Notes under the pieces: model-generated
The model's input: only the letters and a program-made list of their open reading frames with translations
Database searches by the model: none
Told to the model about the DNA's origin: nothing
Virus record (IMG/VR): IMGVR_UViG_3300046168_000072
Location: 57,276-121,275 of that record
Direction: 5' to 3' (one strand)
DNA: 64,000 nt
Source: a virus
In this document: one piece after another, positions 7,650 to 51,701 of the stretch
How the letters are laid out: each line of letters starts with the position of its first letter
Position numbering within the stretch: the first letter of the stretch is position 1
Made by a program: the position numbers and the translations under genes

Positions 7650-8617
7650 TAGTTATGATATTGAACAGTGAAAGTTACTGATGTGCCTGCAAGCAATCCC
7701 TGACTCGGAGTTTCAAACGGACTCTGATAGTTAAGGACATGCTCTAAATTAACACTCGTTGATGAAGCTTTTTCTAAACGAGCTAAACCATCGCTGCTTG
7801 AAGCGGAATAAGAATCAGGATTAGGATATGTCGATGGATAGTTTACCCAAATATTTCCTTGAGGACTAGAGTTGCTGATAATTGTAAAATCAGTAAATCC
7901 AAAAGCAGATGGACGATAATCAGTTCCACCAATACTTGCCAAGGATTTTTCTAAAGTTGAAATTTCTCCACTAATCGTAATTTGTTGTGTCGTTGGAGCT
8001 GCAGTCGTAGTCGTACTTGTTGTAGTTGTTGGAAAAGCTGTTGTAGTACTCGTAGTTGTTGGAAAAGCTGTTGTAGTACTCGTAGTTGTTGGAAAAGCTG
8101 TTGTAGTACTCGTGGTTGTTGGAAAAGCTGTTGTAGTACTCGTAGTTGTTGGAAAAGCTGTTGTAGTACTCGTAGTTGTTGGAAAAGCTGTTGTAGTACT
8201 CGTGGTTGTTGGAAAAGCTGTTGTAGTACTCGTAGTTGTTGGAAAAGCTGTTGTAGTACTCGTAGTTGTTGGAAAAGCTGTTGTAGTACTCGTAGTTGTT
8301 GGAGCCGCTGTAGTAGTCGGTGCCTGTGTTGTAGGTGCCTGAGTAGTAGGTGCCTGAGTTGTAGGTGCCTGAGTCGTTGGAGTAGCTGTTGTAGTAGTCG
8401 TAGTTATCCCTGGAAAAGCTCCATCAATTATGTGTCCTTGATTATTAACCTGTACAGAAATCACTCCAGCATTACCAGATACGCTAGATATAGAATACCA
8501 TAAATTATTACCGCTCCAAGTGTCAGTAAGTTGTGCGTCAACATACAAGCCAGTCAATGGGAAGTTATTGTTTTCTATTGCTCCTGAAACGTCAAAATAT
8601 AATTGTGTATTGTTCAT
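7649..8617 (-). CDS. Virion fibre protein with FPTTTSTTTA mucin-like stalk
   Basis: This 322-residue protein has three parts: a beta-rich head (about 1-75), a Thr/Pro/Ser stalk (about 75-210) and a beta-rich C-terminal domain (about 215-322) starting near QQITISGEIS. The stalk opens with APTTQ-type pentapeptides and continues as nine copies of a decapeptide FPTTTSTTTA coded by a 30-bp repeat. Such linkers look like O-glycosylated mucin stalks; that reading is inference. It lies between two other fibre genes with almost no spacing. Antisense frames through the repeat are open but are artefacts of the repeat. The exact structural role is unknown. Confidence 0.8.
   Translation of the reverse strand: MNNTQLYFDVSGAIENNNFPLTGLYVDAQLTDTWSGNNLWYSISSVSGNAGVISVQVNNQGHIIDGAFPGITTTTTTATPTTQAPTTQAPTTQAPTTQAPTTTAAPTTTSTTTAFPTTTSTTTAFPTTTSTTTAFPTTTSTTTAFPTTTSTTTAFPTTTSTTTAFPTTTSTTTAFPTTTSTTTAFPTTTSTTTAFPTTTTSTTTTAAPTTQQITISGEISTLEKSLASIGGTDYRPSAFGFTDFTIISNSSPQGNIWVNYPSTYPNPDSYSASSSDGLARLEKASSTSVNLEHVLNYQSPFETPSQGLLAGTSVTFTVQYHN
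8024..8297 (-). repeat. 30-bp tandem repeat, nine units
   Basis: Nine near-identical 30-bp units encode FPTTTSTTTA in the fibre gene. Units differ only by single transitions (for example CGTAG or CGTGG), so the array arose by recent expansion and may change length by recombination. Confidence 0.85.
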
Positions 8618-8629
8618 CTTTAAATTGTT

Positions 8630-10147
8630 TTATTCATTTGATTGGTAATAAATTTCTGTAGAAGTATTTGAAAAGTTTTCGGTAGCAGAACCCTGACCTT
8701 CTTGAGCATGAGTATAATAAGCACGGCTATAATATATTGAAAAATTAGTTGCATCAAAGTTTGGAACAGTATCTCCTTGGCCTGCTACAGCCTGAGTAAA
8801 ATAACCCTGAATAGTAGGCGCCTGAGTCGTTGGTGCCTGTGTTGTAGGTGCCTGAGTCGTTGGAGCTGCTGTAGTAGGTGCCTGTGTTGTAGGTGCCTGA
8901 GTCGTTGGAGCTGCTGTAGTAGGTGCCTGTGTTGTAGGTGCCTGAGTCGTTGGTGCCTGAGTCGTTGGTGCCTGAGTCGTTGGTGCCTGAGTTGTAGGTG
9001 CCTGAGTCGTTGGTGCCTGTGTTGTAGGTGCCTGAGTCGTTGGTGCCTGTGTTGTAGGTGCCTGAGTCGTTGGAGCTGCTGTAGTAGGTGCCTGTGTTGT
9101 AGGTGCCTGAGTCGTTGGTGCCTGAGTTGTAGGTGCCTGAGTCGTTGGTGCCTGAGTCGTTGGTGCCTGTGTTGTAGGTGCCTGAGTCGTTGGTGCCTGA
9201 GTTGTAGGTGCCTGAGTTGTAGGCGCCTGAGTCGTTGGTGCCTGTGTTGTAGGTGCCTGTGTTGTAGGTGCCTGAGTCGTTGGTGCCTGTGTTGTAGGCG
9301 CCTGAGTCGTTGGAGCTGCTGTAGTAGGTGCCTGAGTTGTAGGCGCCTGAGTCGTTGGTGCCTGTGTTGTAGGTGCCTGTGTTGTAGGTGCCTGAGTCGT
9401 TGGAGCTGCTGTAGTAGGTGCCTGAGTTGTAGGCGCCTGAGTCGTTGGTGCCTGTGTTGTAGGTGCCTGTGTTGTAGGTGCCTGTGTTGTAGGTGCCTGA
9501 GTTGTAGGCGCCTGAGTCGTTGGTGCCTGTGTTGTAGGTGCCTGTGTTGTAGGTGCCTGAGTCGTTGGAGCTGCTGTAGTAGGTGCCTGAGTCGTTGGAG
9601 CTGCTGTAGTAGGTGCCTGTGTTGTAGGTGCCTGAGTCGTTGGTGCCTGAGTCGTTGGTGCCTGAGTCGTTGGTGCCTGTGTTGTAGGTGCTATCGTTGT
9701 GGTTGTCGTTGTAGTAGTGACAGGGATAATACCCTCTCTAATGTCTAAATTAACAGTAAAGCAACCTTTCAATAAAGTATATACAAGTGCGTCATCGTTT
9801 CTATGAACAACACTTATGCCATAAAAATAAGTTCCCTCTAATAAATCTTTAGTATCATTATGCAAAAGCACCACACGCGCCTTGCCTTCTGAAGAATTTA
9901 ATAAAGTAATTCCTCCTGAAGTGCCTGTAGGAGGATGCTCACTATCTTTTAAAATAACAGCTTTAGAATCAGGATGAATATCCTTTTTCTTGATTGTAAA
10001 AAATACTAAATAGTTATCTAAATTAAGAGCTTGGCCATCTAAATCAAGATCTAAATCAAAAGAAACAGCATCACCACGATATATCGACAAGCAATCGTTT
10101 AAAGGCTTGACGCATGGTGTGGGGCATGAGTTTTTGATATCAGACAT
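8630..10147 (-). CDS. Virion fibre protein with about 59 APTTQ repeats
   Basis: The protein has 505 residues. The N-terminal domain (about 1-143) starts MSDIKNSCPTPCVK and contains IYRGDAVSFDLDLDLDG, which resembles the beta-sandwich attachment domain of baseplate/BppU-type proteins. A Thr run leads into a stalk of about 59 pentapeptides, mostly APTTQ with interspersed APTTA. The tail (about 447-505) holds two tandem copies of a roughly 26-residue motif, F/YTxAxxGQGxxxxNF..T...IYY. The architecture (attachment head, long Pro/Thr stalk, small duplicated tip) suits a virion spike or fibre. The stalk supplies well over 100 Thr residues that could carry O-glycans; no glycosylation can be seen from DNA. 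Confidence 0.82.
   Translation of the reverse strand: MSDIKNSCPTPCVKPLNDCLSIYRGDAVSFDLDLDLDGQALNLDNYLVFFTIKKKDIHPDSKAVILKDSEHPPTGTSGGITLLNSSEGKARVVLLHNDTKDLLEGTYFYGISVVHRNDDALVYTLLKGCFTVNLDIREGIIPVTTTTTTTTIAPTTQAPTTQAPTTQAPTTQAPTTQAPTTAAPTTQAPTTAAPTTQAPTTQAPTTQAPTTQAPTTQAPTTQAPTTQAPTTQAPTTQAPTTQAPTTAAPTTQAPTTQAPTTQAPTTQAPTTQAPTTAAPTTQAPTTQAPTTQAPTTQAPTTQAPTTQAPTTQAPTTQAPTTQAPTTQAPTTQAPTTQAPTTQAPTTQAPTTQAPTTAAPTTQAPTTQAPTTQAPTTQAPTTQAPTTQAPTTQAPTTQAPTTQAPTTQAPTTAAPTTQAPTTQAPTTAAPTTQAPTTQAPTTQAPTIQGYFTQAVAGQGDTVPNFDATNFSIYYSRAYYTHAQEGQGSATENFSNTSTEIYYQSNE
8803..9693 (-). repeat. 15-bp tandem repeat, about 59 units (APTTQ/APTTA)
   Basis: The array codes pentapeptides APTTQ with scattered APTTA. 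Larger blocks of several units recur (for example near 9060-9240 and 9300-9560), so expansion happened at more than one scale. Every third position varies between a few synonymous bases. Confidence 0.88.
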
Positions 10148-11633: not shown

Positions 11634-12068
11634 TTATCGCCTTTTACTTGGTATAGCGTAAAAACCAACCACCATAAAGCATAAATCCATGAAAGATGAT
11701 AACATTAAACCGCCTGTCATTTGAACCATCTCCCAATCTTTCGCGCCAAAAACAAAACTAAAAAATCCAAATCTTGCTCCATCTCCTTTAGGAACAATTA
11801 TATCATAACTAATTGTTGGATTGTGTGCATAAAATATCATTAAATAACACATTGTGAATGTGATCGCCATGAATAAAACGCGGCGAGTAACTTTAACGAA
11901 TGGGTCAGAAGCCGTTTCGTTTTGATTTTTGATTAGCGCTTCTAGCATCATATTATCTCTAGCCGCTAAAATCATTTGATCTTGACGTTTTTGCTCTAAC
12001 CAAGCATTAATTAAATTACAGGCCAGCTTAATGCCAGCACCAATGATAGTGTTAATAATAGGACCCAT
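11634..12068 (-). CDS. Small membrane protein, putative holin
   Basis: The 144-residue protein starts with an amphipathic helix (MGPIINTIIGAGIKLACNLI). A charged stretch (about 26-58, EQKRQDQMILAARDN) follows, then two hydrophobic spans at about 66-83 (VLFMAITFTMCYLMIFYA) and 121-138 (LMLSSFMDLCFMVVGFYA), and a basic tail (PSKRR). Short three-helix holins of marine phages have this general organisation, but no diagnostic motif is seen. No endolysin gene is adjacent. It sits between nrdB and the glycan cassette. Confidence 0.5.
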   Translation of the reverse strand: MGPIINTIIGAGIKLACNLINAWLEQKRQDQMILAARDNMMLEALIKNQNETASDPFVKVTRRVLFMAITFTMCYLMIFYAHNPTISYDIIVPKGDGARFGFFSFVFGAKDWEMVQMTGGLMLSSFMDLCFMVVGFYAIPSKRR

Positions 12069-12082: not shown

Positions 12083-13075
12083 TTAATATCCTTCAGATTC
12101 GCTGCAATTTTGCATTTGATCATAGATCCAGGCATATGTTTTTTCAAGACCATCTTCTAATGTAATAGAAGGGGCCCAGCCTAAAACTTCTTTGATCATA
12201 GTGTTGTCGCTATTTCGACCACGAACACCTTGAGGCGCATCAAGATTATAATTTCTTTTTAGTTTAATGCCGCCGATTCCTTCAACAATATCAACAAGTT
12301 GATTGATGGATACCATGCGATCACTTCCAAGATTTAATGGGCGAGAATCACCTTTTTGCCACATCAATTCCATGCCAGTGATACAATCATCAATAAACAT
12401 GAACGAACGAGTTTGCTCACCGTCCCCCCAGATTTCAATTTCATGCTTGCCGCTCATCTTGGCTTCAATAACCTTGCGACAAATTGCAGCAGGAGCTTTT
12501 TCACGACCACCACGCCATGTTCCAAATGGGCCATAGACATTGTGGTAACGACAAGTACGGGAATCGATATTAAAATCTTTTCCGTAATAATAAGTAATCA
12601 ATTCACTAAATAATTTTTCCCAACCATATCCATCATCTGGATTTGCTGGAAATACGTCTGATTCTTTGAGCGCTTGAGATGATTCATCTTTAATCTCAGA
12701 TTGAATTGCAGCTGGATAAACACAAGCAGTAGAGCTATAAAGAACTTCTTTAACGCCGTTATCTCTTGCGGCCATCATCATATGAGTCTGAATTAAAACA
12801 TTTTCCATGCAGAGAGCTTGATTATTTTCGACAAAACCCATGCCGCCCATATTGCAAGCAAGATTATAAATACGATCAACACCAACACTTAAGTTATGGC
12901 AATGATCTTTTTCCTGTAGATTGCAATCTGCATGATTCTCAGCGCCATCAAATGTCTGATACCACATGTCTGAGGGTTTAATATCAGCGGCAACAACTTC
13001 ATGCCCTTGCGCCAATAAATCTTTAACTAAATAACCAGCGATAAAACCGCCTGCTCCTCCAACTAATATTTTCAT
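12083..13075 (-). CDS. gme: GDP-mannose 3,5-epimerase (GME-like)
   Basis: This extended SDR protein (330 residues) closely follows the plant GDP-mannose 3,5-epimerase, which converts GDP-D-mannose to GDP-L-galactose or GDP-L-gulose. The family signatures are present: NLACNMGGMGFVENN, C118 in SSTACVYP, Y150 and K154 in YGWEKL, GPFGTWRGGREKAPAAICRK with the conserved lysine K193, GDGEQTRSFMFIDDC, and GVRGRNSDN near the C-terminus. An NAD-binding GGAGGFIAG loop lies at 6-14. It shares its substrate, GDP-mannose, with gmd at 46.3 kb. It leads the long minus-strand glycan cassette in position but is transcribed from genes to its right. A different NDP-sugar epimerase is possible but less likely, given the GREKAPA and GRNSDN blocks. 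Confidence 0.9.
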   Translation of the reverse strand: MKILVGGAGGFIAGYLVKDLLAQGHEVVAADIKPSDMWYQTFDGAENHADCNLQEKDHCHNLSVGVDRIYNLACNMGGMGFVENNQALCMENVLIQTHMMMAARDNGVKEVLYSSTACVYPAAIQSEIKDESSQALKESDVFPANPDDGYGWEKLFSELITYYYGKDFNIDSRTCRYHNVYGPFGTWRGGREKAPAAICRKVIEAKMSGKHEIEIWGDGEQTRSFMFIDDCITGMELMWQKGDSRPLNLGSDRMVSINQLVDIVEGIGGIKLKRNYNLDAPQGVRGRNSDNTMIKEVLGWAPSITLEDGLEKTYAWIYDQMQNCSESEGY

Positions 13076-13085
13076 TAATTCTTGA

Positions 13086-13640
13086 TTAATTCTTGACTAA
13101 AACAAATTGATCTTTGAAGAGATTGAATTTAGCAATATCAGCAGTATTGGATCTAAACTCGTCTACAGCTTTAACAACACCAAAATCTAGAGTTTCAATT
13201 TGATACTTACCTTCTTGATAATCATCACCACAAATTGCTCCACCAGTAGAAATTTTAGGCCACCACAAGTTTAAATCTTCTTTTACGAATTCATAACTAT
13301 GATCGCCATCAATATAAACCCAGTCAATTGAACCATCTTCAAAAGAACTAGCAGCTTGAGCGGAAAAGTCTCTGATAATATTCACTCTTTCGTTTCCTGA
13401 AAATTTTGCAACAACGCTATCGTGTATAGCATCCATTTCATCTTGTGGCGCTGCATGCCAACGAGCAGGCACATTAGTGATGCTTTTCCATGGATCGATT
13501 AAATGTAACTTTTTAACTGACTTTTTTAAGATTTCAGATGAAAAATCACCTTTCCATACGCCTATTTCTGCGCAAACAGCATCGTTTTTTATAAAGTTAA
13601 GTGTTTGATTCATGTCATATAAATTATATTGGTAGCTCAT
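13086..13640 (-). CDS. Class I SAM-dependent methyltransferase (Methyltransf_24-like)
   Basis: The product is about 184 residues from the ATG at 13640 (MSYQYNLYDMNQ), which lies 1 bp after the upstream stop. A longer in-frame start at 13694 would overlap the sulfotransferase gene. Motifs include the SAM-binding AEIGVWKGDFSSEIL, LHLIDPWK, and the acidic DWVYIDGDHSYEFVKEDL followed by GGAICGDDY. This pattern belongs to the Methyltransf_24 group often found in polysaccharide and surface-glycan clusters. It probably O-methylates a sugar, but the acceptor is unknown. Confidence 0.8.
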   Translation of the reverse strand: MSYQYNLYDMNQTLNFIKNDAVCAEIGVWKGDFSSEILKKSVKKLHLIDPWKSITNVPARWHAAPQDEMDAIHDSVVAKFSGNERVNIIRDFSAQAASSFEDGSIDWVYIDGDHSYEFVKEDLNLWWPKISTGGAICGDDYQEGKYQIETLDFGVVKAVDEFRSNTADIAKFNLFKDQFVLVKN

Positions 13641-13641
13641 T

Positions 13642-14229
13642 TTAAAAATTATAGTTATATTTTTCGATATCTTCTTGGTATATATTATACACAAGTTTTT
13701 TGGTTTCTTCTATGTATAATTGTTGATAATTTTGATTGTTTGTTGAGTTAGTTTTTGGCAAAGGTTTTGAATGCAATTTCAAACGAGATAAAATCGCAGC
13801 ATAATCTTGTTGAATATTTTCAAAGCGACCAATAAGGTCAATCGACTGATCGATAAAATAACCAAACGGTTGAAAGTGGATACCAGATTCAAAAGACCCT
13901 TTTTCTCGTTTCATTAATTTCATAAAATCAGGTATATGATTGACAAATTCACCAAAACTCATTTGATTTGCAGCGTCCGATATAATACTGTTTCTTTTGT
14001 ACCAGCGGTGGCCTTCCTTCAATTTACGAAAATATTTATAAGCCGAAACTATTCGATCATATGGATTACGAACAAAAGTAAATGAAAAATAATCAAGATA
14101 TTCGGAATGATAAGACATCGGAGAATGCCCCGAAAACCCTACGGACTTTAATTCCAATTGCTGATTTATTGAACTGCCCGCGCATTTCGGGATATGCACA
14201 AAAATACATTGTCTATCGTGTGATATCAT
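13642..14229 (-). CDS. Sulfotransferase (Sulfotransfer_2-like) 1
   Basis: PAPS-dependent sulfotransferase of 195 residues. The 5'-phosphosulfate loop is CIFVHIPKCAGSSI near residues 8-21. The 3'-phosphate site is FTFVRNPYDRIVSAYKYF near 50-67, with the Arg and Ser typical of the family. The C-terminus (EDIEKYNYNF) matches the ends of the sister proteins in this cassette. The family transfers sulfate to carbohydrate hydroxyls (chondroitin or HNK-1 type enzymes). The start overlaps the upstream stop as TAATG. The acceptor sugar is unknown. Confidence 0.88.
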   Translation of the reverse strand: MISHDRQCIFVHIPKCAGSSINQQLELKSVGFSGHSPMSYHSEYLDYFSFTFVRNPYDRIVSAYKYFRKLKEGHRWYKRNSIISDAANQMSFGEFVNHIPDFMKLMKREKGSFESGIHFQPFGYFIDQSIDLIGRFENIQQDYAAILSRLKLHSKPLPKTNSTNNQNYQQLYIEETKKLVYNIYQEDIEKYNYNF

Positions 14230-16947: not shown

Positions 16948-18328
16948 TAGCAAAAAGGATAAGGCTCATCGAAAGAAACATAATGATATCGCTTTTCATC
17001 CCAAACATAATGATCTACTAGTGTTGACGGACCGTAAGGATATCTCGGATAAAATAAAGGCGCATATATTTTAGTAGCATTAGATAAAAATGCCGCCCAC
17101 CAAGAAAACGTAGAATTTGCAACACATATTTGATCAGAAGAAGATATAAAGCGAAATCATCCCAAGGAGACTCAGAAATAATTTCATGATTATATTTATT
17201 AAATTGAGTAAAGTAAGAATCTTTTGGAGAGTCTGTGACTAAATAGATCTTAGAAGGCTTGGCATGATCAATGCATTTTTTATAAAAAGAAAAAGGTAAT
17301 AGCCAGCCATAATTTTTGAAGTCACCAATTCTGATGTGTATAACTAAATCGTTGTCTTCTGCTTGGGGTGAAGGTTTGCTGAAATTAAGCCACTGCTTGA
17401 TATTTATTTTGTGAGGTTGATAATATTCATATCTTTGAAATTCTCCTTGAACAATCAACTTACAAGGATTATGGTCGACCCCATGAATCCTGTGAGATAA
17501 TTCTTGCGGGCTATGAGCAACATTAAACTCGGGCTGTTTAATTATTTTTCCATTAACTTTTTGTTTTAAGTTTGGAAAATTATGAATATATTTTTCAATA
17601 TCAGCGCCCTTAACTTCGGCATTTAGATGGTAGCCAAAACGTTCAGCCAAAATTCTGCCTATACAATAAGTAAATAAGTGGTTCCCAAACCTACTCCATT
17701 TAGTATATTTTACTTTGACCATTTTTTTATAATTAAGAAATTTTAAATCGTTTGAGTAAACACACTCTAATATATTAAGAGACTCTTTATTTAAAATTTG
17801 ATTTTTATCCCTATTAACGCCTTGATTTTTATGAGGTATATCAGTGGTGACTCCAAATGTAGATAAAATTTTAGGTAGTTCGTCACTAATGTTTTCTAAC
17901 CGAACCAAGTGATCCACAAGAAGAGTGTTTTCAAAATAAAAAGCGTTCCATTGAAGTTGGAAATGTAAATTTATTTTATTGGGGTTAGATTTTTTTGTTA
18001 AGTTTTTTTGTACAAAATCATTGATATCAGAGCATGGATCTATTCGATTTTTTTTAGAAAGATAAAAATAAGCCGAAATGAATTTATCTAAAGGATGTCT
18101 AGATATTCCAAATGTTGTTAAGCTGAGCCATTCTTTGGTATTTAAGTAAATATCGGCAAATTTCATCCATTCTTTTTTGTCGTCTTTTTTGACGACGGCT
18201 CTATCTTTAAGGATGTTTCTGGTGATGCTGGTTTGAGCCGCCTTGTTAATAGGAACATAGGCGAACTGACCAAGTCTATCAAAAATAACAGGATTGGGAA
18301 GCTTGAGGAGATATTCAAATTTATCCAT
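16947..18328 (-). CDS. Sulfotransferase-GT11 fusion, frameshifted near the C-terminus
   Basis: Residues 1 to about 200 are a Sulfotransfer_2-like domain: GQFAYVPINKAAQTSITRN as phosphosulfate loop, FGISRHPLDKFISAYFYL as 3'-phosphate site, and an end (NDLKFLNYKK) typical of the stand-alone sisters. Directly after it, MVKVKYTKWSRFGNHLFTY starts a GT11 alpha-1,2-fucosyltransferase-like domain with VIHIRIGDF. Near 17143 a missing T shifts the frame. Restored, it reads FALYSSSDQICVANSTFSWW and stops at 16947 (EPYPFC). ANSTFSWW is the GT11 C-terminal signature. The protein would be about 460 residues. Either it is a true bifunctional enzyme or two genes were joined by loss of a stop at the KK/MVK junction. 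Confidence 0.75.
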
Positions 18329-25278: not shown

Positions 25279-26012
25279 TTTCGAGCTTTGATAAAAGAAT
25301 CTTTTTTGTATTCCGCTTCTTTTTTTGTGTTTGGGTGCCAGACGTATGTTTCTTCTTCTATTGGGCCACGTTTAACCAGTGGCTTGCTTAAAGCTAATAA
25401 CGAAAGCTCATTGTAATTATAGTCTTGATCGGCAGTATTATCTATAATTAATTCATCGCCAAGCTTATGGGGTTGAGGTGTCGGTTGATTATGTAGTAAA
25501 AATTGATTAAAGTTTTTCTGGTCAGAACCTTTAATTTCCCGTGTGTTTAAAAACCTATCAAGATAATTGATTGTTTTGTAATTGCTTCTGAAAAATACCC
25601 AGCCCATGCAACATGTAAAACCAAAAGCCTCACGAACTTCTGGTGGAAATGCCCCATTATGCCTTACGGTTGATACGATAATATCCTGGCCGTTAGCTTC
25701 AATCAAATCAGGTATAGGATTCTTTAGCCAAAGAGCATCCGTGTCAGAATGAATAATATCAAAACCATCCTCTAGATACTTTTTGAATATAAAAGTTCGA
25801 CGCATTGTATGCTTGCATCCAGAAATCCAATCGTCGCTAAATTCATCAAGAACTCTTGAATGACATCCGTGAGATTTTAAATATTCGTCAGACTCAGGAT
25901 CTAAACATAATACTTCATAATTGTCGATAGATAAAGCTTCTAGGTGCTTGACCCAATTAAGAGCTATCTCTCTGTAAGGATAATTGCAGAACGATATAAT
26001 TTTAAGATTCAT
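25266..26012 (-). CDS. Nucleotide-sugar transferase, GT77/Nucleotid_trans-like
   Basis: The product is about 248 residues from the ATG at 26012 (MNLKIISFCNYPYREIALNW); a start five codons upstream would lengthen the overlap. The signature FDIIHSDTDALWLKNPI holds the DXD metal site of the Nucleotid_trans family (plant and algal GT77 relatives). FGFTCCMGWVFFRSN and GSDQKNFNQFLL match the conserved downstream blocks. It is expected to transfer a pentose or hexose from an NDP-sugar. It overlaps both neighbours by about 11-13 bp. Confidence 0.8.
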   Translation of the reverse strand: MNLKIISFCNYPYREIALNWVKHLEALSIDNYEVLCLDPESDEYLKSHGCHSRVLDEFSDDWISGCKHTMRRTFIFKKYLEDGFDIIHSDTDALWLKNPIPDLIEANGQDIIVSTVRHNGAFPPEVREAFGFTCCMGWVFFRSNYKTINYLDRFLNTREIKGSDQKNFNQFLLHNQPTPQPHKLGDELIIDNTADQDYNYNELSLLALSKPLVKRGPIEEETYVWHPNTKKEAEYKKDSFIKARKWKI

Positions 26013-26640
26013 ATTCAAATAAGTCAAAGTCGTTTTTATAGTAGTTATACACTTTATCTTTTAACTCATCTGTCCATGAAGAGTTTACTTTAAACGTTCT
26101 AGAATTATATGCGTGAGGCAGTTGATATTCAAACATGTTTAAGTCTTCACATGCTTTTTTAAAGTCTTGGTTTAAGCTTTCAAACCGACCTGTAAAATCA
26201 CAAGTGAAATCGGAGCTGATTTTATCTGTAAAGTAATGGCCGCCATTTAATTGAGGAAAGAACTCGAATTGTGGCAATGTATGGTATTCATCATATTCAC
26301 TCCATAAATTTTGATGGTCTTTGCGATAATCAAGATCAGTAGTTAATAGCACATATTCTTCGAACGATACCGCGCGTTCTTTATTGTAAAAAGACAGGTC
26401 ACCTTCTTTTTCAAATTTAAGTTGCCCCCATTTCCAGGCAGAAACTAAACGATTATATGGATTGCGAACAAATGAAAATACATAATAATCAAGATGCTGA
26501 TTTAAAAACCTAGAGAAACCACGTTTTCTTAATACTTTCTGGGGTATATCTGGGTCAATTTCTCGTAAAAACCTTTCTACAGATGTGCCTGCAGCTTTTG
26601 GAATATGAATGAATATACATTTATGCTTGTGACTAATCAT
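26002..26640 (-). CDS. Sulfotransferase (Sulfotransfer_2-like) 2
   Basis: The 212-residue protein opens MISHKHKCIFIHIPKAAGTS, with the phosphosulfate-binding loop at about 10-20. FSFVRNPYNRLVSAWKWG near 54-71 is the 3'-phosphate site. FTGRFESLNQDFKKACEDL later in the chain recurs in its sisters (GRFENIQQDY, GRFENLQEDF), so the family has been amplified within the cassette. It overlaps the upstream glycosyltransferase by 8 bp. Confidence 0.88.
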   Translation of the reverse strand: MISHKHKCIFIHIPKAAGTSVERFLREIDPDIPQKVLRKRGFSRFLNQHLDYYVFSFVRNPYNRLVSAWKWGQLKFEKEGDLSFYNKERAVSFEEYVLLTTDLDYRKDHQNLWSEYDEYHTLPQFEFFPQLNGGHYFTDKISSDFTCDFTGRFESLNQDFKKACEDLNMFEYQLPHAYNSRTFKVNSSWTDELKDKVYNYYKNDFDLFEYES

Positions 26641-30758: not shown

Positions 30759-31379
30759 TTATTCCCCAAATTTATATCCAAAATACTCGATGTCCTGTGC
30801 ATATTTTTCCGCAACAATTTCTCTGCTTTCATCATCGTAGTATTCGGTGTAATGTTTGTGGTTTGATTTGTTTTTGTGTGGAAGTTGTTGGCGAGGAATG
30901 CCGATTTTGTCGCAAACGATATCGAAATCTTCTTGTAAGTTCTCAAATCTTCCAATAAAGTTTAAATCTAATACACCATCAATAAGAAAATAATCAACTT
31001 GTGGAATAAAATGAGATTTTTGAAAATGAGTATAATCAGAAAATGATTTATTTGAGATCAAACGAACAAATGTACTAAAATCTAAATCCTTGGGATGAAC
31101 CATTCGATTTGGGTTAGGCTTCCACATAGCGGTGCCATGCTTCAAGAAAACAAACTCAGAAGCTATTTTTGACCAAGGGCTCCTTACAAAAGAAAATTTA
31201 AAAAAAGAATCATAACTCGAAACTGTTTCTTTATAATCGGAGGCTCGATAATGATCTATTTCCCTGTTTTTGTCATCTATGTATGGGGGGAGGACATTAT
31301 AGTTTAAAGCTTTATGAATTGAATGCCCAGCAGTTCTTGGGACATGAATAAATATGAACTTATGATTATTGTCGATCAT
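30759..31379 (-). CDS. Sulfotransferase (Sulfotransfer_2-like) 3
   Basis: This 206-residue protein shows HKFIFIHVPRTAGHSIHKAL for the phosphosulfate loop; the usual Lys after Pro is Arg here (PRTAG). FFKFSFVRSPWSKIASEFVF is the 3'-phosphate site with R and S conserved. NFIGRFENLQEDFDIVCDKI and the tail AQDIEYFGYKFGE match the sister genes. The K-to-R change in the loop is a point to test for altered activity. Confidence 0.85.
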   Translation of the reverse strand: MIDNNHKFIFIHVPRTAGHSIHKALNYNVLPPYIDDKNREIDHYRASDYKETVSSYDSFFKFSFVRSPWSKIASEFVFLKHGTAMWKPNPNRMVHPKDLDFSTFVRLISNKSFSDYTHFQKSHFIPQVDYFLIDGVLDLNFIGRFENLQEDFDIVCDKIGIPRQQLPHKNKSNHKHYTEYYDDESREIVAEKYAQDIEYFGYKFGE

Positions 31380-32254: not shown

Positions 32255-33142
32255 CTAATAACACTTCTCCTGAAAATTAATGTGAAAATTTGGTATACCT
32301 TTATATAGGCAAAACTCATTGAATCTGCTAAAGTTTTTAAATAAAAAATTTGTATACTGTAATAAGTAAAAATCCACTAATGCTTCTTTAGCTATGTTTA
32401 TGCGTCCGTACTTTTCTTCCATTTTAATTTGTATCTCTGTGGACTGCTCGCCTTTTTCGTGGCCAGTACCACAACCTGGAGGAGCAAAGTATCTTTCAGT
32501 TACGATTGTATTTCCGTATTCTTTTTCGAACAAATCAACGAACTGCTTTGAATCTGTAGCAACAAAAAACTTATAATTATCGCAGGCTTTTAAAAATGCA
32601 CGTGGTGAATCAAATAATACATGATCTATTTTTTCTTTATAAATATCAAAGATAGTTTGAATTGCATTTCTTTTCCCCTGGAAACGATTTGAGTCTCCAG
32701 TTATTGGCGGCAAAACTTCTCCGTTTGATGTTCGGGCATGAACTCCAACTACATAATTTCCAGTAAAGTATTTTTCGCGCATGCTATCAATTTCAGCAGC
32801 AATACTTCTGTGAACATTTATGCGATCAAATGTATCATAAAATTTTTTTGACTCTTCTTGCGATTTAAGTGGGTTTTTGATTACCAATCTAGAATCAGAA
32901 TGTTGTTCGGCATCTTTTTTCAGCTGATCTATATATTCCTCATTGACAATGACTTCTGTGTCTGTATCAATGTGATGAAAATATTCAGCAAACAAGTTAC
33001 TATCACCTTTGCTGGCCCAATGCCCGCGCATATCAATTAGTATGCCTTTATTATTCTGCTCGCAATACATTAAAGCATTTGTGAGATGCCATAAGGTATC
33101 GCCCCATCCAGTGTCACGAGAAAAATAATAATAATTATTCAC
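32255..33142 (-). CDS. NodZ/FUT8-like (GT23-type) fucosyltransferase candidate
   Basis: The 295-residue protein begins MNNYYYFSRDTGWGDTLWHL. It has the GDP-fucose-site pattern YVVGVHARTSNGEVLPP (H-x-R in the family's HxRxxD/HxRRxx position) and YKFFVATDSKQFVDLFEKEY, corresponding to the FLATDD motif of NodZ/FUT8. GTGHEKGEQSTEI and KEALVDFYLLQYTNFLF match the downstream region. GT23 enzymes add alpha-1,6-fucose to GlcNAc. The assignment is by motif order only. GDP-fucose would come from gmd and fcl at 45.4-47.4 kb. Confidence 0.65.
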   Translation of the reverse strand: MNNYYYFSRDTGWGDTLWHLTNALMYCEQNNKGILIDMRGHWASKGDSNLFAEYFHHIDTDTEVIVNEEYIDQLKKDAEQHSDSRLVIKNPLKSQEESKKFYDTFDRINVHRSIAAEIDSMREKYFTGNYVVGVHARTSNGEVLPPITGDSNRFQGKRNAIQTIFDIYKEKIDHVLFDSPRAFLKACDNYKFFVATDSKQFVDLFEKEYGNTIVTERYFAPPGCGTGHEKGEQSTEIQIKMEEKYGRINIAKEALVDFYLLQYTNFLFKNFSRFNEFCLYKGIPNFHINFQEKCY

Positions 33143-33939
33143 AATATAATCTTCTCATCTCCATATTTATCAAACATTTCTTGGTAGTTAGGTATCTTAT
33201 TGTATGCTTTTTTACCAAACACTCTTCTGCCTGTATCCAGGAAGTTTTTAACATTATCGTAATCAACTTCTACATTAAGGTATGCAATCATATTATCAAA
33301 CTGCGCAAGCCTTTGTTCGTAAGTTTCTAAACCATAAAGATCTTCATATTTAGAAACGTAAGCGTCAGGAGGAAGTAGCTCATGGTAGTGCGGTAAATAT
33401 TTTTTATACCATTTGATTCTTCTTTGAATCGGCGGCTCTTCTAGATCTTGATAATCAAATGAGTCAACTTTTGCTTTATGTTCTTTTTGCTCACCTAACT
33501 GCCAAACTTGAACTTGATTTGCTAGCTGCCATGAAACTGCAGGATAAAATGCACTTTCTCTGTATTGATATATAATTTTTATACCATGTGCCGCGCAGTA
33601 ATATATAAAGTTTTCATTACCAACTTCAGAGACTGTACACCAAACATGTTTAACGCCATCAAATACGAAAAATAAATCATCAAGAAATTCCCAAAGCTTT
33701 TCTCGATTTTCAGAAATGTTATTAAATTTATTAAAGTATGGTATATGGTCTGACTTTGGAAGGTTGTCAGGGTTCATATCATGGTCTTCAATAATCTTAG
33801 CATATCTTGGGTTATGCTCAAGGTCACCAGTGAGAGAGGATAATGGCTCATGAACAATGCGATCATTTTTATTAAGAGCGGCAATTAGACTCGTGGTTCC
33901 CGCTCTTTCTTGACCAAAAATTACAAATTTAGAATCCAT
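33139..33939 (-). CDS. Sulfotransferase family 1/3-like protein
   Basis: The product is about 266 residues from the ATG at 33939 (MDSKFVIFGQERAGTTSLIA); the TTG two codons upstream is a poorer start. GQERAGTTSL is the phosphosulfate P-loop. HGIKIIYQYRESAFYPAVSW contains the R and S of the 3'-phosphate site. Unlike its neighbours it lacks the HIPKxAG form, so it is a separate lineage of sulfotransferase. The C-terminus (VFGKKAYNKIPNYQEMFDKY) is typical of P-loop Sulfotransfer_3 proteins. Overlap with the next gene is four bases. Confidence 0.78.
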   Translation of the reverse strand: MDSKFVIFGQERAGTTSLIAALNKNDRIVHEPLSSLTGDLEHNPRYAKIIEDHDMNPDNLPKSDHIPYFNKFNNISENREKLWEFLDDLFFVFDGVKHVWCTVSEVGNENFIYYCAAHGIKIIYQYRESAFYPAVSWQLANQVQVWQLGEQKEHKAKVDSFDYQDLEEPPIQRRIKWYKKYLPHYHELLPPDAYVSKYEDLYGLETYEQRLAQFDNMIAYLNVEVDYDNVKNFLDTGRRVFGKKAYNKIPNYQEMFDKYGDEKIIL

Positions 33940-34615
33940 AATCAAAATAAACTAAATCTTCTGCGAAATGTTTTTCTATATAATCTTTACTGTACGTTGA
34001 ATAGTAGTCTTGATAGCTTGTTTTCTTTTTGTATTCTGCACTACTGTTTTTTCTCCAATCATCAAAGCCTTTGCGGCTTTTAAACTTAAGTGTTGTTTGA
34101 AGCTGGAACAAACATTCTTGCATGTCTTCCACTTTGAAAAATTTATCTATTTCAACTCTGCCTTGATAAGTGACTCTACTTAAATTGGTGTCGTAATATC
34201 CAGCATGAAATTCTTTAATAGCTTTTTCCTCATAAGCGTAATTGATGAAACCATCAAAATCATCATTGATATAATATTCATGAAACTTTTTAACATATGG
34301 CATTTTGGGCGAATCAATATTATTCTCTACAAAATAATCATATTTCCAGCCGCCAAGATATGAGAACATAGAAACAACACGATCAAAAGGATTGCGTACT
34401 ATTGTAAATTTAAAATAATCTTTATAATCAGGAACTTCCCAAAGTATTCCATTGATAGCTCTCTCGCATGTAGTTTTATATTTGCTATCATAATCTTGTT
34501 GGTTTTGATTATTTTCGTAATCAGACTCTATATTCGATAAAAGATAGTGCTTGATAAATGTGCCCCCAGACTTTGGAATGTGTACGTAAATAAATTTATG
34601 ATCGTGACTATACAT
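33929..34615 (-). CDS. Sulfotransferase (Sulfotransfer_2-like) 4
   Basis: The 228-residue protein opens MYSHDHKFIYVHIPKSGGTF with a complete HIPKSGG phosphosulfate loop. FKFTIVRNPFDRVVSMFSYL is the 3'-phosphate site. The C-terminal AEDLVYFDYGF again matches the sister genes. It overlaps the Sulfotransfer_1/3 gene by 11 bp, so two sulfotransferases of different lineage are translationally coupled. Confidence 0.88.
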   Translation of the reverse strand: MYSHDHKFIYVHIPKSGGTFIKHYLLSNIESDYENNQNQQDYDSKYKTTCERAINGILWEVPDYKDYFKFTIVRNPFDRVVSMFSYLGGWKYDYFVENNIDSPKMPYVKKFHEYYINDDFDGFINYAYEEKAIKEFHAGYYDTNLSRVTYQGRVEIDKFFKVEDMQECLFQLQTTLKFKSRKGFDDWRKNSSAEYKKKTSYQDYYSTYSKDYIEKHFAEDLVYFDYGF

Positions 34616-43622: not shown

Positions 43623-44453
43623 TTATTTTTTGACTGCTGATTCTGATTTTGCCCAGTCTAGATCTTCTCTAACATCAAGATTTACTTCCCAGGCAGACTT
43701 CAGTAACTTAGGGTCTAAGCCATTTTTTTCAAAAGTTTTTATCAGGGCATTGATATCTTTAGGGAAGCAAGTTCCGCCAAAACCTTTATCTCCATCATGG
43801 CCAGGGACTTGAAAGTGAGATTGACCAATCCTTCTGTCTGTAATAACACCATTAACGATTGCATGCCAGTCAAGGCCCAACTTGCTGATCAAAGCATAAA
43901 CTTCATTAAAAAAGCTAACCTTTGTTGCGAAAAAACAATTAGCGATATACTTTACTGATTCAGATTCATCACTCTTCATTAATACAGTCTGAACGTTTGG
44001 AAAAGCTTGATTGAATAATTTAATCACTTTACCTCCCACGCTTTTCTTTTTTACGTAACCAACGATATGTCGATCTGCATTCAAGAAATCTTCTTTCGCA
44101 AATTTTGCAGTAAGGAACTCAGGAGAATGAACAATATTTAAATTAGGATGTTGTGCCTGCAACGATTTAGTAGTGCCAATTGGAACCGTAGATTTTATAA
44201 TAAAAGTAGCTTTTGATCCAATAGAATCAATTTCATCAAAACAAGATTCTATAATTGACAAATTACAATCTGCACCCATAGCATCTTTCATGGGAGTTGG
44301 CACACTAACAAAGACGAAATCTTGAGAGAGAGTATCTTCCAAAGAGTTTTTGGAAATATCTAGATTTTTATCAAATACTTTTACGTCATATTGTTTAAAT
44401 CCGTTTGCTACTGCGGAGCCAACGAAGCCATTGCCGATTACGCCAATTTTCAT
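43623..44453 (-). CDS. Short UDP-glucose/GDP-mannose dehydrogenase-family enzyme
   Basis: The product is 276 residues from the ATG at 44453 (MKIGVIGNGFVGSAVANGF). It has the NAD loop GNGFVG, KSTVPIGTTKSL, and the catalytic Cys in DKGFGGTCFPKDINALI. Family members oxidise UDP-glucose to UDP-glucuronate, or GDP-mannose to the uronate. The usual length is about 400-450 residues; here the C-terminal nucleotide-binding domain is missing and the protein ends soon after the central helix (WEVNLDVREDLDWAKSE). Short phage forms may be active as dimers with a different substrate. It overlaps the epimerase gene by four bases. Confidence 0.82.
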   Translation of the reverse strand: MKIGVIGNGFVGSAVANGFKQYDVKVFDKNLDISKNSLEDTLSQDFVFVSVPTPMKDAMGADCNLSIIESCFDEIDSIGSKATFIIKSTVPIGTTKSLQAQHPNLNIVHSPEFLTAKFAKEDFLNADRHIVGYVKKKSVGGKVIKLFNQAFPNVQTVLMKSDESESVKYIANCFFATKVSFFNEVYALISKLGLDWHAIVNGVITDRRIGQSHFQVPGHDGDKGFGGTCFPKDINALIKTFEKNGLDPKLLKSAWEVNLDVREDLDWAKSESAVKK

Positions 44454-45361
44454 TGTGGTTTGTTGGCCTCTACCCAATCTTCAAATACTTGAACTGGCTT
44501 CCATTTTAATAAAGTTTTAGCTTTTGTATTATCAGCCAAAGTTTCACGAGCTTCTCCAGGTCTAGCATCAATAAAAGTATGTTGACCGTCAACTAATTTA
44601 ACAATATCAAGAACGGAATGATTTTTTCCAGTCCCCAGATTAAACATTTCTCCAATGATTTTTTTGTTTTTTGATTCACCTGCTAAATACATAGCTTCAA
44701 CAATATCTTTAACATATGTATAATCTCTAGTCTGTAATCCATCTCCAACAACAGTCATTGATTTTCCAGCTTCTTTTTGTCTAAAAAATAATCCCACAAC
44801 AGGAGCATAATCCCCAGACAAAGGTTGGCGTTCGCCGTAAACATTGAAAAATCTAAATAAAACAGTTTCAATTCCAAAAAGTTTGGTATACATTTTGCAT
44901 AATTCCTCACAATTAGCCTTGCTTACTGAATATGGATTCAAGCAGTCATTGGGCATATCTTCTCTTAGTGGGATAGGATTAGCTAAACCGTAGCAAGAGG
45001 AAGTTCCAGCAAACATTACTCTTTTACAGTTGTTTAATCTGGCTGCTTGAAGAACATTTACTGTGCCAAGAGAATTATTTTTAACTGCATCAGATGGGTC
45101 TTGAACACAAATCTGAATGCGAGAACGGGCAGCTAAATGAAAAACTAAATCAACTCCTTTAAATAAAGGCTCTAGTTTGTCAAAATCACAAATATCAACT
45201 TTATGATTTTCGGTATCGTCTCTCCAATTAAATTGAGAATTGGCAGTAGAAGATTCATCGTCAACAACGATAACTTCGTGCCCAGCGCTTAATAATCTTT
45301 CAACCAAGTGACTGCCTATAAAGCCAGCACCTCCTGTAACTAAACATTTTTTCTTAGACAT
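44450..45361 (-). CDS. NDP-sugar epimerase/decarboxylase (extended SDR)
   Basis: This 303-residue protein has CLVTGGAGFIGSHLVERLL as the NAD loop, AGTSSCYG, and the YSVSKANCEEL catalytic pair. RFFNVYGERQ and VGDGLQTRDYTYVKDIVEAM follow, all standard for UDP-glucose/UDP-glucuronate 4-epimerase or WbpP-type enzymes. Being next to the dehydrogenase, it may turn a UDP-uronate into UDP-GalA or act on UDP-GlcNAc. It starts 17 bp after the fcl stop. Confidence 0.82.
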   Translation of the reverse strand: MSKKKCLVTGGAGFIGSHLVERLLSAGHEVIVVDDESSTANSQFNWRDDTENHKVDICDFDKLEPLFKGVDLVFHLAARSRIQICVQDPSDAVKNNSLGTVNVLQAARLNNCKRVMFAGTSSCYGLANPIPLREDMPNDCLNPYSVSKANCEELCKMYTKLFGIETVLFRFFNVYGERQPLSGDYAPVVGLFFRQKEAGKSMTVVGDGLQTRDYTYVKDIVEAMYLAGESKNKKIIGEMFNLGTGKNHSVLDIVKLVDGQHTFIDARPGEARETLADNTKAKTLLKWKPVQVFEDWVEANKPQ

Positions 45362-45378: not shown

Positions 45379-46335
45379 CTAACAATCAATTTTCAAATTT
45401 TTTATAAACCAACTGTAAGTTTTTTCGATTCCTTGTTTTAAATCATATTTTTGCCTAAAGCCCATCGATTTTATTCTCGTGTTATCCATTTTTTTTCTGA
45501 ATGTACCGTCTGGCTTTGATGAATCAAATACTACATCGCCTTGATAGCTTAAGCATGATTTGATTATTTTTGTAAGTTCTAATATAGAAACCTCATCATC
45601 TGAACCACAGTTTAAATGCGATACACCTTCGGAATAAACCTTATCTGCTGATACATTTTCTAAACAATAAGTTACAGCTTCAGCCAAGTCGTCAACAAAA
45701 AGAAACTCTCTTAAGGGCTTTCCGCTGCCCCAAACCTCTACAGATTGAGCGCCTGATTCGCGAGCGCAATATATTTTATTTATTAAAGCTGGCAATACAT
45801 GTGATGTTTGTAAATCGAAATTATCTCTTGGTCCATATAGATTGCATGGCATTACGGAATAAAAATCGCTACCATATTGTTTGTAAAAACTTTCGCACAT
45901 TTTAAGTGCAGCTATTTTTGCAATAGCATATGGCTCATTTGTGATTTCTAATTCTCCAGTCAATAAGTATTCTTCTTTAATTGGTATTTTTGCATCACGT
46001 GGATAAATACATGAAGAGCCTAAATTAATTAATTTTCCCACAGAATGATCATGTGATGCTTTTATGATATTCGATGCAATCTGTAAATTATCATATATGA
46101 AATCTGCACGATATGTATTATTAGCTAATATACCTCCAACTTTTGCGGCGCATAAAATAACATAATCTATCTCTTCATTTTTAAAAAAAGTATCAACAGC
46201 TTTTTGATTCAATAAATCAAGATCTTGTCTTGTTCTTGTTGTTATGTTTGTGTAGCCTTTTGATTTTAAATTATCAACAACCGCAGAACCAACCATTCCA
46301 CGATGACCAGCTACGAAGATTTTTTTATCTTTCAC
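45379..46335 (-). CDS. fcl: GDP-L-fucose synthase
   Basis: Fcl (WcaG) performs the epimerisation and NADPH reduction of GDP-4-keto-6-deoxymannose to GDP-L-fucose. The start is GTG 46335, overlapping the gmd stop as GTGA; a longer frame would overlap gmd by 111 bp. Signatures are KKIFVAGHRGMVGSAVVDNL, CAAKVGGILANNTYRADFIY, NLGSSCIYPR, YAIAKIAALKMCESF (YxxxK) and WGSGKPLREFLFVDDLAEA. Length (318) is normal. Together with gmd it forms a complete GDP-fucose pathway from GDP-mannose. Confidence 0.94.
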   Translation of the reverse strand: MKDKKIFVAGHRGMVGSAVVDNLKSKGYTNITTRTRQDLDLLNQKAVDTFFKNEEIDYVILCAAKVGGILANNTYRADFIYDNLQIASNIIKASHDHSVGKLINLGSSCIYPRDAKIPIKEEYLLTGELEITNEPYAIAKIAALKMCESFYKQYGSDFYSVMPCNLYGPRDNFDLQTSHVLPALINKIYCARESGAQSVEVWGSGKPLREFLFVDDLAEAVTYCLENVSADKVYSEGVSHLNCGSDDEVSILELTKIIKSCLSYQGDVVFDSSKPDGTFRKKMDNTRIKSMGFRQKYDLKQGIEKTYSWFIKNLKIDC

Positions 46336-47384
46336 TGAGAGAGTAATTTGTAATCGTTTTCGTACATTTTTTTGACAAGACCCAAGAATCCAGTTTTTCT
46401 TTTCCAGCCCATTTCTTGTTCTGCAAGAGAGCAGTCGCCACATAATTTATGAACTTCTGCAGGGCGATAAAATTTAGGGTTTACCTGAAAAAGTAAATTG
46501 CCATCTTTTGTATAATACTTTTCATTGTCTTCTGTACCCTTGGATATAAATTCTATACCTGCGCATTTTAAACTTTCATCAAGAAATTCTCTAACGCTGT
46601 GCATCTCGCCACTAGCTAATACATAATTTTTAGGCCGCTCTTGATTTAACATCATCCATACGCCTTCCATGAAATCTTCAGCATCAGTCCAGTCGCGCTT
46701 TGCATCGATATTTCCTAATTCTAATATTGGGATTTCTTTTTCCGCTTCAAGCGCATGCTTAATCTTGGCAACGCTATGACTAATCTTACGGGTTACAAAG
46801 TCTAAACCTCTTCTTGTGCCTTCGTGATTGAAAAGCCAGCCTTGTATTGCATACAGACCATAGGACTCGCGGTAAACTCTGACGATATGTCGAGCAGCAC
46901 ACTTTGCTGCGCCGTATGGAGATTGTGGACGCAAAGGATGCTCTTCATTTTGTGGGGTACAAACGACATCACCAAACTCTTCGGATGAACCAGCATTATA
47001 AAAACGACAGTGGGGAGCAAAGCGACGAATTGACTCTAGGATATGAAGGACTGAGTCGGCATCAGTATCCCATGTTTGTATCGGATAATCCCAGCTTCCT
47101 GCCACGAAAGATTGGGCGGCGAAGTTAATAAAGTAATCTGGTTGAATATCAATAATTACATCACGCATACTGTGCGCATCATTCAAATCCATATTGATCA
47201 ATTGGAATCGCGGCTCATTTTCTAAATGCAAAATGTTTTCATGGTTTTTTACGCTTAATCGGCGAACTGCTCCGTAAATCATGAAATCCGTTTTACCAAA
47301 TTCTTCTTGAAATAGCTTTAATAGATAGTCAGCCATATGACTACCGTCTTGACCTGTTACTCCAGTTATAATTATCTTTTTCAT
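46332..47384 (-). CDS. gmd: GDP-mannose 4,6-dehydratase
   Basis: Gmd catalyses the first step from GDP-mannose to GDP-L-fucose or GDP-rhamnose. The ATG at 47384 lies 1 bp after the GT11 stop. The protein (350 residues) has KKIIITGVTGQDGSHMADYL, NFAAQSFVAGSWDYP, NAGSSEEFG, SPYGAAKCAARHIVRVYRES (YxxxK), NHEGTRRGLDFVTRKI and GNIDAKRDWTDAEDF. All are family hallmarks. GDP-mannose must come from the host. Confidence 0.96.
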   Translation of the reverse strand: MKKIIITGVTGQDGSHMADYLLKLFQEEFGKTDFMIYGAVRRLSVKNHENILHLENEPRFQLINMDLNDAHSMRDVIIDIQPDYFINFAAQSFVAGSWDYPIQTWDTDADSVLHILESIRRFAPHCRFYNAGSSEEFGDVVCTPQNEEHPLRPQSPYGAAKCAARHIVRVYRESYGLYAIQGWLFNHEGTRRGLDFVTRKISHSVAKIKHALEAEKEIPILELGNIDAKRDWTDAEDFMEGVWMMLNQERPKNYVLASGEMHSVREFLDESLKCAGIEFISKGTEDNEKYYTKDGNLLFQVNPKFYRPAEVHKLCGDCSLAEQEMGWKRKTGFLGLVKKMYENDYKLLSQ

Positions 47385-47385
47385 T

Positions 47386-48165
47386 CTATAATTGAATCCA
47401 TTCTTGAGGTTTTGTATTAGATGTATCTTCTCTATCGCCAAACCATTGTTTTGGGAATACTACTTTTTTATTTTTATCTTGATTAAGCCATGCACCCATC
47501 CAGCTAAAAGAGCTGTTTGCAATAATATTGTTTTTACATAAACTCATAAATTTTAAATCATTGATATTTGAATTATCTTCCATGAATACCATTTTTTCAA
47601 ATTTAAAATTTTCTTTGCACCAACTTATGTCATCAGAGAATATAAAAAGGTTTCCTTTAGGTTGAATAATATCAAGAGCTTTTTGGTAATAATCAATTGG
47701 TTGAATAGTATGTATATGGGGTACGTTTAAATAATCGCCGCGCCTAACATGTAAAGAACAAGAGTCTTTAAAGTTAAAGTCGTGATCAATATTAAAATCA
47801 ATACAAGATAAGATGTCTTCTCTTATATCTTGTATGTATTTTTCATTCTGCCAATAGCCAACAAAATAATAAGAATACTGATCGTTATAATCAAAATTTA
47901 AATAAGAACGCGGTTCATTAATAACCTGTTGAGGTTTTGATTGAAATTTATTAACAACCTCTTGAGTAATTAGTGGTATTTCTATATTTAATAAATTAGG
48001 TAAACAAAAATCCCTAACGTCAATTCTTTTATCCAGATAATTTTCGTGTTGAAAAAAACTAATATCATAATAAACTTTTGTATTATTTTTTTTAGAAAGT
48101 GAATGACCAAAAGCCCATTGGAATAGTTGATTGCAAAGGCCGCCTTGTATTTTAATTATTATCAT
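47386..48165 (-). CDS. Alpha-1,2-fucosyltransferase-like (GT11)
   Basis: The product is about 259 residues from the ATG at 48165 (MIIIKIQGGLCNQLFQWAFG). It has the GT11 motifs I (HVRRGDY, in CSLHVRRGDYLNVPHI), II (FIFSDDISWCKENF) and III (IIANSSFSWMGAWLNQ). GT11 covers the FUT1/FUT2 H-antigen enzymes and bacterial WbwK/FutC. The gene is directly upstream of gmd and fcl, so its donor is made in the same operon. It overlaps the FkbM gene by 14 bp. Confidence 0.9.
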   Translation of the reverse strand: MIIIKIQGGLCNQLFQWAFGHSLSKKNNTKVYYDISFFQHENYLDKRIDVRDFCLPNLLNIEIPLITQEVVNKFQSKPQQVINEPRSYLNFDYNDQYSYYFVGYWQNEKYIQDIREDILSCIDFNIDHDFNFKDSCSLHVRRGDYLNVPHIHTIQPIDYYQKALDIIQPKGNLFIFSDDISWCKENFKFEKMVFMEDNSNINDLKFMSLCKNNIIANSSFSWMGAWLNQDKNKKVVFPKQWFGDREDTSNTKPQEWIQL

Positions 48166-48802
48166 TATTAAATGTTTTATTGAAGCATACAATGTTTGAA
48201 TATTGATAGTGATCTTCGAAATTTTCTATAGTTGTCATCCCGTTTTTGTTTAAATAAGAAAAGCTATGAAATCCCATTTCTTTTAAATAATTTATAATTT
48301 CAAGTAAACTAATTCCTGCATCTTTGAATGTCCCACCGTATTCGAATTGTATTATTTGAACTATATTTAATCTTTCACCGAAACCTTTTATTACATTAAA
48401 TTCGAAACCTTCAGTGTCTATTTTTAGAAAATTTATTTTATCGATATTATTTTTGTCTACATAGCTTTTTGCAGTTCTTGTTTTAAAGATTTGTACAGAA
48501 CTATTTTTTTTGGTAGTTCCGCTTCTATCAACGAAGGATTGATAATCATCAAAATAGTTTAATTCACACTCTTTATTGGAAAGCCCGAAGTCATTAAAAA
48601 AGCTTTTAGAATTTTTATTCTCCAGATGCTTCAATTGATTCATGAATTTTTTGTTTGGATCAAAGTAATGTACATCGCAGGTACAATTTCTGAATAAACT
48701 GTCATTCCTACAGCCTACATCAAAAACAATAGAAAGATCGCTTTTTATTTTGTTGAAGAAATATAATTCTCCGTTCGTATTTGCATTACAATTATTAAAC
48801 AT
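48152..48802 (-). CDS. FkbM-family methyltransferase A
   Basis: This 216-residue protein has the SAM loop SIVFDVGCRNDSLF and CDVHYFDPNKKF (acidic motif II). The family signature INFLKIDTEGFEFNVIKGFG and IIQFEYGGTF follow. FkbM enzymes O-methylate sugars or polyketides and are frequent in phage and surface-glycan clusters. A short 2-bp gap separates it from the second FkbM gene. Confidence 0.88.
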   Translation of the reverse strand: MFNNCNANTNGELYFFNKIKSDLSIVFDVGCRNDSLFRNCTCDVHYFDPNKKFMNQLKHLENKNSKSFFNDFGLSNKECELNYFDDYQSFVDRSGTTKKNSSVQIFKTRTAKSYVDKNNIDKINFLKIDTEGFEFNVIKGFGERLNIVQIIQFEYGGTFKDAGISLLEIINYLKEMGFHSFSYLNKNGMTTIENFEDHYQYSNIVCFNKTFNNDNN

Positions 48803-51458: not shown

Positions 51459-51469
51459 CGAGTCTCCCG

Positions 51470-51498
51470 ATAATAACAAATTCAAAATGAAAAATCAA
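51470..51498 (-). promoter_or_regulatory. Sigma70-type promoter of the second glycan operon
   Basis: On the minus strand TTGATT (51498-51493) and TATTAT (51475-51470) are 17 bp apart. The -10 box ends 11 nt before the ATG at 51458, so the leader would be only about 5 nt. It would drive the GT2-GT6-GT2-FkbM-FkbM-GT11-gmd-fcl-epimerase-dehydrogenase run. Confidence 0.6.
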
Positions 51499-51529
51499 GT
51501 AAAATTTTCGCGCAATTTTTATTTCTTTA

Positions 51530-51557
51530 TTGACATATATGAAATATATTATATAAT
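51530..51557 (+). promoter_or_regulatory. Consensus sigma70 promoter
   Basis: TTGACA (51530-51535) and TATAAT (51552-51557) are both perfect matches, 16 bp apart. The transcript would start near 51564 and enter the gene at 51702 with a leader of about 140 nt. Confidence 0.72.
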
Positions 51558-51694: not shown

Positions 51695-51701
51695 CCGCAA
51701 C

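Follow-up and report, generated by a model that had tools for sequence, protein, structure and literature searches.

A GDP-mannose 3,5-epimerase of bacterial affinity in the sulfotransferase-rich glycan cassette of a tailed phage

Why would a phage encode GDP-mannose 3,5-epimerase (GME or GM35E), an enzyme whose counterpart in Arabidopsis thaliana, by contrast, has an ascorbate and cell-wall role? The question is raised by an open reading frame in a 64,000-nucleotide stretch of DNA from a marine virus (the window), which corresponds to bases 57276-121275 of a 121,275-base IMG/VR virus record. The minus strand encodes it as a complete frame (the plus strand has 14 stops); the catalytic codons are given approximately:

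12083..13075, minus strand: GDP-mannose 3,5-epimerase (GME/GM35E), 330 aa
12722-12724 (about): codon of Cys118
12626-12628 (about): codon of Tyr150
12497-12499 (about): codon of Lys193
12215-12217 (about): codon of Arg287

The original prediction called this a GME in a phage, and the viral setting holds up. The record has a tail-sheath match and a close relative of 194.5 kb (whose GME is 88% identical) has a terminase, which together make the virus a tailed phage; ribonucleotide reductase and dNMP kinase are also present in the record. A search for the T4 gp23 capsid protein returned zero matches anywhere, and its control was equally silent. The gene has the same setting in at least 13 other viral contigs, and because the setting recurs in this way it is no assembly accident.

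The identity of the enzyme also stands: sequence, diagnostic residues, predicted fold and phylogeny all mark the product as a genuine GDP-mannose 3,5-epimerase. In a phmmer search of the PDB, the plant GMEs of Myrciaria and Arabidopsis are the top matches (E 6e-95 to 2e-91, 322-310 bits), whereas the next family, UDP-glucose 4-epimerase, scores 92 bits and other NDP-sugar SDRs score no higher; identity to Arabidopsis GME is 44-46%. No GME model was among the matches in an NCBIfam scan. Two other identities were considered for the frame and rejected: GDP-L-fucose synthase (GMER/Fcl), since the protein has K193 and R287 instead of His and Lys and scores 119 bits against the Fcl model's cut-off of 500, and UDP-glucose 4-epimerase (GalE), since it scores 79.5 bits against a cut-off of 262 (TIGR01179) and has the extra Cys/Lys pair.

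The motifs named in the original prediction are all present: Cys118 in STACVYP, Y150xxxK154, GGREKAPAA (containing K193) and GVRGRNSDN (containing R287). The NAD-binding motif GxxGxx[GA] occurs as G7-AG-G10-FI-A13, the GxxGxxA form seen in Arabidopsis, and the [ST]...YxxxK triad of oxidation and reduction (S143, Y174, K178) is represented by T116, Y150 and K154. Thr116 stands in place of the usual Ser143, but Thr is allowed in an [ST]-Y-K triad, and six sister viruses have the same residue. The acid, C145, and the base, K217, correspond to C118 and K193, invariant in 15/15 rows of the query group; the Cys-priming Arg (R306), the diphosphate Arg (R243) and Asn203 correspond to R287, R223 and N179. 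The catalytic and substrate-contact positions checked (N179, E192, K193, R223, R287) are all kept. GMER/Fcl resembles GME in its SDR fold, Cys acid, YxxxK and double C3/C5 epimerisation, but acts on a 4-keto-6-deoxy sugar, forms a separate clade and has a Cys/His pair plus Lys where GME has a Cys/Lys acid-base pair plus Arg (PMC8787198). The Fcl of the same phage (45379-46332) has Cys107, His177 and Lys279, a full match to the GMER set; both forms thus occur in one genome. Fold agrees with family: in a PDB comparison of an AlphaFold2 model built from a 40-row alignment (mean pLDDT 85.4, pTM 0.86), Arabidopsis and Myrciaria GME chains make up the top 14 matches (TM 0.83-0.88, 44-45% identity), the best being Arabidopsis GME 2C54 (TM 0.88). 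Arabidopsis GME (2C5A/2C59) shares all catalytic positions with the phage protein, Thr replacing Ser143.

Phylogeny was the check that had been proposed, and placement in another NDP-sugar epimerase clade was looked for and not found. Two trees were built, one of 165 rows and a careful one of 57. The phage protein belongs to the GME clade, which separates from the SDR outgroups, Fcl and UDP-GlcA epimerase among them (support 98/93; 97 in the larger tree), and within that clade it falls among bacterial GMEs (100/99). The comparison with the plant enzyme had implied a plant link, but the query virus group joins GMEs of marine Verrucomicrobiota (100/100), namely Opitutales MAG.200 and Akkermansiaceae UBA4589. 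These share all catalytic residues with the phage enzyme and are 70-73% identical to it, but are chromosomal: of the three relatives on bacterial contigs, two (L029, L031) adjoin glycosyltransferase genes and one (L030) adjoins rpoC. Also cellular is the GM35E of Methylacidiphilum fumariolicum, the first characterised bacterial enzyme, which by the paper's description belongs to the same family and has the same diagnostic residues (PMC6678494). The simplest reading of these sequences is that the phage GME was acquired from, or exchanged with, a Verrucomicrobiota-like donor, in a transfer that may have run either way. It could instead be vertical inheritance within one old phage family that also includes the cyanophage GMEs, and both kinds of GME do occur in large tailed phages, as part of glycan cassettes. 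We consider this very improbable: cyanophage GMEs form a different clade together with most other viral rows, a single clade of the query and cyanophage groups is rejected (AU test p = 0.000235), and the query group nests with Verrucomicrobiota at full support. The trees thus indicate that phages gained GME more than once.

A phage GME is not in itself new, as had been implied, and viral GMEs are common. A literature search on virus-encoded GDP-fucose or GME found nothing; the 2022 genome paper on cyanophage S-SCSM1 reports a GDP-mannose-3,5-epimerase (PMC9602691). The gene order there is Gmd-Fcl-GME, then GT11 and NodZ. The S-SCSM1 protein (QFG06381, MK867354) and genes of other Synechococcus and Prochlorococcus phages share with the query the GME catalytic set and a glycan cassette, in which Gmd, Fcl, GT11 and NodZ likewise neighbour GME or are co-resident with it (one to three GT11 genes in each of six GME-bearing cyanophages checked). 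They differ in being only about 41% identical to the query and in their separate clade (AU p = 0.0002). In a tblastn search of GenBank phages, 37 records reached at least 38% identity, every one of them from a cyanophage or an uncultured marine phage. Many of these matches are labelled UDP-glucose 4-epimerase (e.g., GU071095, GU071098, MK799832, KU686204) or "NAD-dependent epimerase" despite clear GME homology. The present analysis fixes an identity for a gene that is mostly mislabelled UDP-glucose 4-epimerase in public phage records. Homologue scans found the catalytic Cys kept in 88/89 other viral rows and 80/80 bacterial rows. Two viral homologues depart from the pattern at the aligned catalytic positions, L130 with Val for Cys and L162 with His for Lys; they may be enzymes that have altered or lost their activity, or else products of misalignment. 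What is new here is that the phage lineage and the origin of its GME are both separate, and that the setting, rich in sulfotransferases, is unusual.

That setting was described in the original prediction as a glycan cassette with sulfotransferases, and both parts are borne out, with five window ORFs above the Pfam cut-off for sulfotransferases:

11634..12068, minus strand: 144-aa protein, predicted by eye from its hydrophobic stretches to be a membrane protein; constant GME neighbour in 13 sister contigs
13086..13694, minus strand: methyltransferase (Methyltransf_24), upstream GME neighbour
13642..14229, minus strand: sulfotransferase (Sulfotransfer_2)
17018..18328, minus strand: weak N-terminal Sulfotransfer_2 domain, barely above cut-off; C-terminal half putatively glycosyltransferase-like by eye
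26002..26640, minus strand: sulfotransferase (Sulfotransfer_2)
30759..31379, minus strand: sulfotransferase (Sulfotransfer_2)
32255..33142, minus strand: NodZ-like (GT23-type) fucosyltransferase candidate (PF05830, E 1.2e-15), possible GDP-L-fucose/GDP-L-galactose user
33929..34615, minus strand: sulfotransferase (Sulfotransfer_2)
43623..44477, minus strand: UDP-glucose dehydrogenase-like (NDP-sugar dehydrogenase) protein
44450..45361, minus strand: NDP-sugar epimerase/decarboxylase-like SDR without the GME/GMER Cys and base
45379..46332, minus strand: GDP-L-fucose synthase (Fcl/GMER) with Cys107/His177/Lys279; open to 46443, true start uncertain
46332..47387, minus strand: frame that stays open to 47441, with MKKIIITGVTGQDG as its likely start
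47386..48192, minus strand: GT11 (alpha-1,2-fucosyltransferase family), candidate GDP-L-fucose/GDP-L-galactose user

Also represented in the window are methyltransferases and the GT2, GT92, GT47-like and pyruvyl-transferase families. Another branch from GDP-mannose (Gmd, Fcl), which lies 32 kb from GME and is not adjacent to it, and the GT11 and NodZ-type fucosyltransferase-like enzymes give a more specific context than the one first proposed. A sequence search with GT11 against the PDB gave no match, nor did a PHROGs search with the 144-aa membrane protein. A P-loop protein at 33139-33945 (minus strand), starting FGQERAGTTSLIAALN, is sulfotransferase-like by eye and has no Pfam match.

Comparison among sister viruses separates GME from its surroundings. 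It is 84-96% identical across 13 sister contigs (some near-identical), and in all of them it adjoins the membrane protein, itself 76-92% identical; the methyltransferase beside it is only 46-57% identical, the first sulfotransferase 59-83%, and glycan genes further away are absent or relocated. Being better conserved than its shuffled neighbours, GME is a stable member that borders a variable cassette. When the query GME is paired with those of ten sister viruses, dN/dS comes to about 0.02-0.10 (dS is near saturation in several pairs), and the gene is under strong purifying selection. Among sister records, Sulfotransfer_2 is found in 12/12 and Fcl in 11/12 of those searched (67-90% identical), the exception being a 37-kb fragment; GT11 exceeds the cut-off in 3/9 records of the query virus family.

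What, then, might the enzyme do for the phage? Family, catalytic residues, fold, selection and context are computed here, and from them we infer activity, product ratio, L-galactose as product, its acceptor, its sulfation and the benefit to the phage. The best explanation as a whole, in which we have good confidence, is that an active GME makes mainly GDP-L-galactose, a rare sugar in activated form, for a phage-remodelled surface glycan, alongside GDP-L-fucose from Gmd and Fcl. GME would draw GDP-D-mannose from the host pool and oxidise C4 with bound NAD+ (Thr116/Tyr150/Lys154); Lys193 (the base) and Cys118 (the acid, which Arg287 primes) would then epimerise C5 and C3, and re-reduction of the ketone would yield mainly GDP-L-galactose and some GDP-L-gulose. 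Gmd and Fcl would convert GDP-mannose to GDP-L-fucose, so that, with GME, the phage would make two closely similar GDP-L-sugars. Since fucosyltransferases accept GDP-L-galactose (PMC8787198), both sugars are likely donors for GT11/NodZ-type enzymes, and GT11 and the NodZ-like protein are candidate users of GDP-L-galactose. GME alone leaves the product ratio unfixed, and the 3/9 count for GT11 means that it is not the sole user in the query family. These and other cassette transferases would build or decorate a surface glycan, which, to judge from the cassette content, may plausibly be sulfated and methylated afterwards, and the surface of the infected cell (or the virion) would be remodelled, for example so that other phages are blocked. 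The phage enzyme is also a candidate biocatalyst for GDP-L-galactose.

Other functions can be weighed against this one. GMEs give GDP-L-gulose and GDP-D-altrose as side products, the GME homologue BlmG is tied to L-gulose (PMC8787198, PMC6678494), and products are not separable by sequence, so the biologically used product could be GDP-L-gulose (or GDP-D-altrose), in line with the proposal made for BlmG when bleomycin is synthesised. We find this unlikely, because the residues for both epimerisations are all present, characterised enzymes yield mainly GDP-L-galactose, and fucosyltransferase-like genes suit L-galactose (6-hydroxy-L-fucose) better than L-gulose. NDP-sugar SDRs also shift specificity readily, and the phage's UDP-glucose dehydrogenase-like protein and additional epimerase-like SDR would fit a GME-derived enzyme acting on a different NDP-hexose of the cassette; retention of N179, E192, K193, R223 and R287 under strong purifying selection makes such a change quite improbable. 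A plant-like role in ascorbate synthesis has only homology to the plant enzyme in its favour and is scarcely credible: the nearest relatives are bacterial, 2/3 of them beside glycosyltransferase genes, and no GDP-L-galactose phosphorylase or galactono-lactone enzyme occurs among roughly 45 scanned record proteins. In this subset of the record's ORFs, the earlier statement that no ascorbate genes lie nearby holds.

The original prediction also connected GME and the sulfotransferases to algal sulfated polysaccharides. Co-occurrence in the virus family stands, but nothing connects the sulfotransferases to L-galactose: Sulfotransfer_2 is above cut-off in 0/6 GME-bearing cyanophages and 4/11 other viral records, versus all of the sister records, and the query family has several such genes. 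The association is a feature of the query virus group and is much weaker elsewhere. Sulfated exopolymers are produced by some marine Verrucomicrobiota (PMC7356697), and the sulfotransferases would therefore be accounted for equally well by a host with a sulfated surface as by algae; the algal link is suggestive only. A bolder idea, which we hold as rather doubtful, is that large tailed phages of Planctomycetota/Verrucomicrobiota-type hosts build their own sulfated L-galactose/L-fucose glycan, with the GDP-L-sugars and several sulfotransferases phage-encoded; if true, such a glycan would resemble algal sulfated galactans and fucans in its building blocks.

Several genes of the same record touch on host and sulfation. 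Outside the window, a gene for a DUF1501 protein (Pfam 377 bits; L191:13343-14623, minus strand, about 51343-52623 of the record) belongs to a family that is frequent among Planctomycetota and Verrucomicrobiota. It had no match among 50,697 GenBank phage records, and its best cellular matches are 57% identical in Planctomycetota and 53% in Verrucomicrobiota, which suggests a PVC-type host. Verrucomicrobiota as the host phylum, favoured by a small sample, was dropped when the wider sample gave the better match in Planctomycetota. A gene whose product joins an APS-kinase-like and a nucleotidyltransferase-like domain (L191:12455-13279, plus strand) has homologues in Stenotrophomonas, Xanthomonas and Clavibacter phages (38-40%) and in six sister viruses (82-96%). 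It is possible that this gene supplies PAPS to the sulfotransferases; it is above the Pfam cut-off, but PAPS synthesis is not claimed because the phage homologues bear other labels. A literature search for phage sulfotransferase plus APS kinase found nothing. PAP is a by-product of sulfotransferases, and an inositol monophosphatase-family protein (L190:6290-7075, minus strand) might act as a PAP phosphatase of the CysQ type. In the window, putative tail-type proteins (7649-10147, minus strand; 61147-62490, plus strand) contain long tracts of Thr/Pro/Gln repeats (TTTTTTAPTTQAP...), which are possible targets of virion glycosylation.
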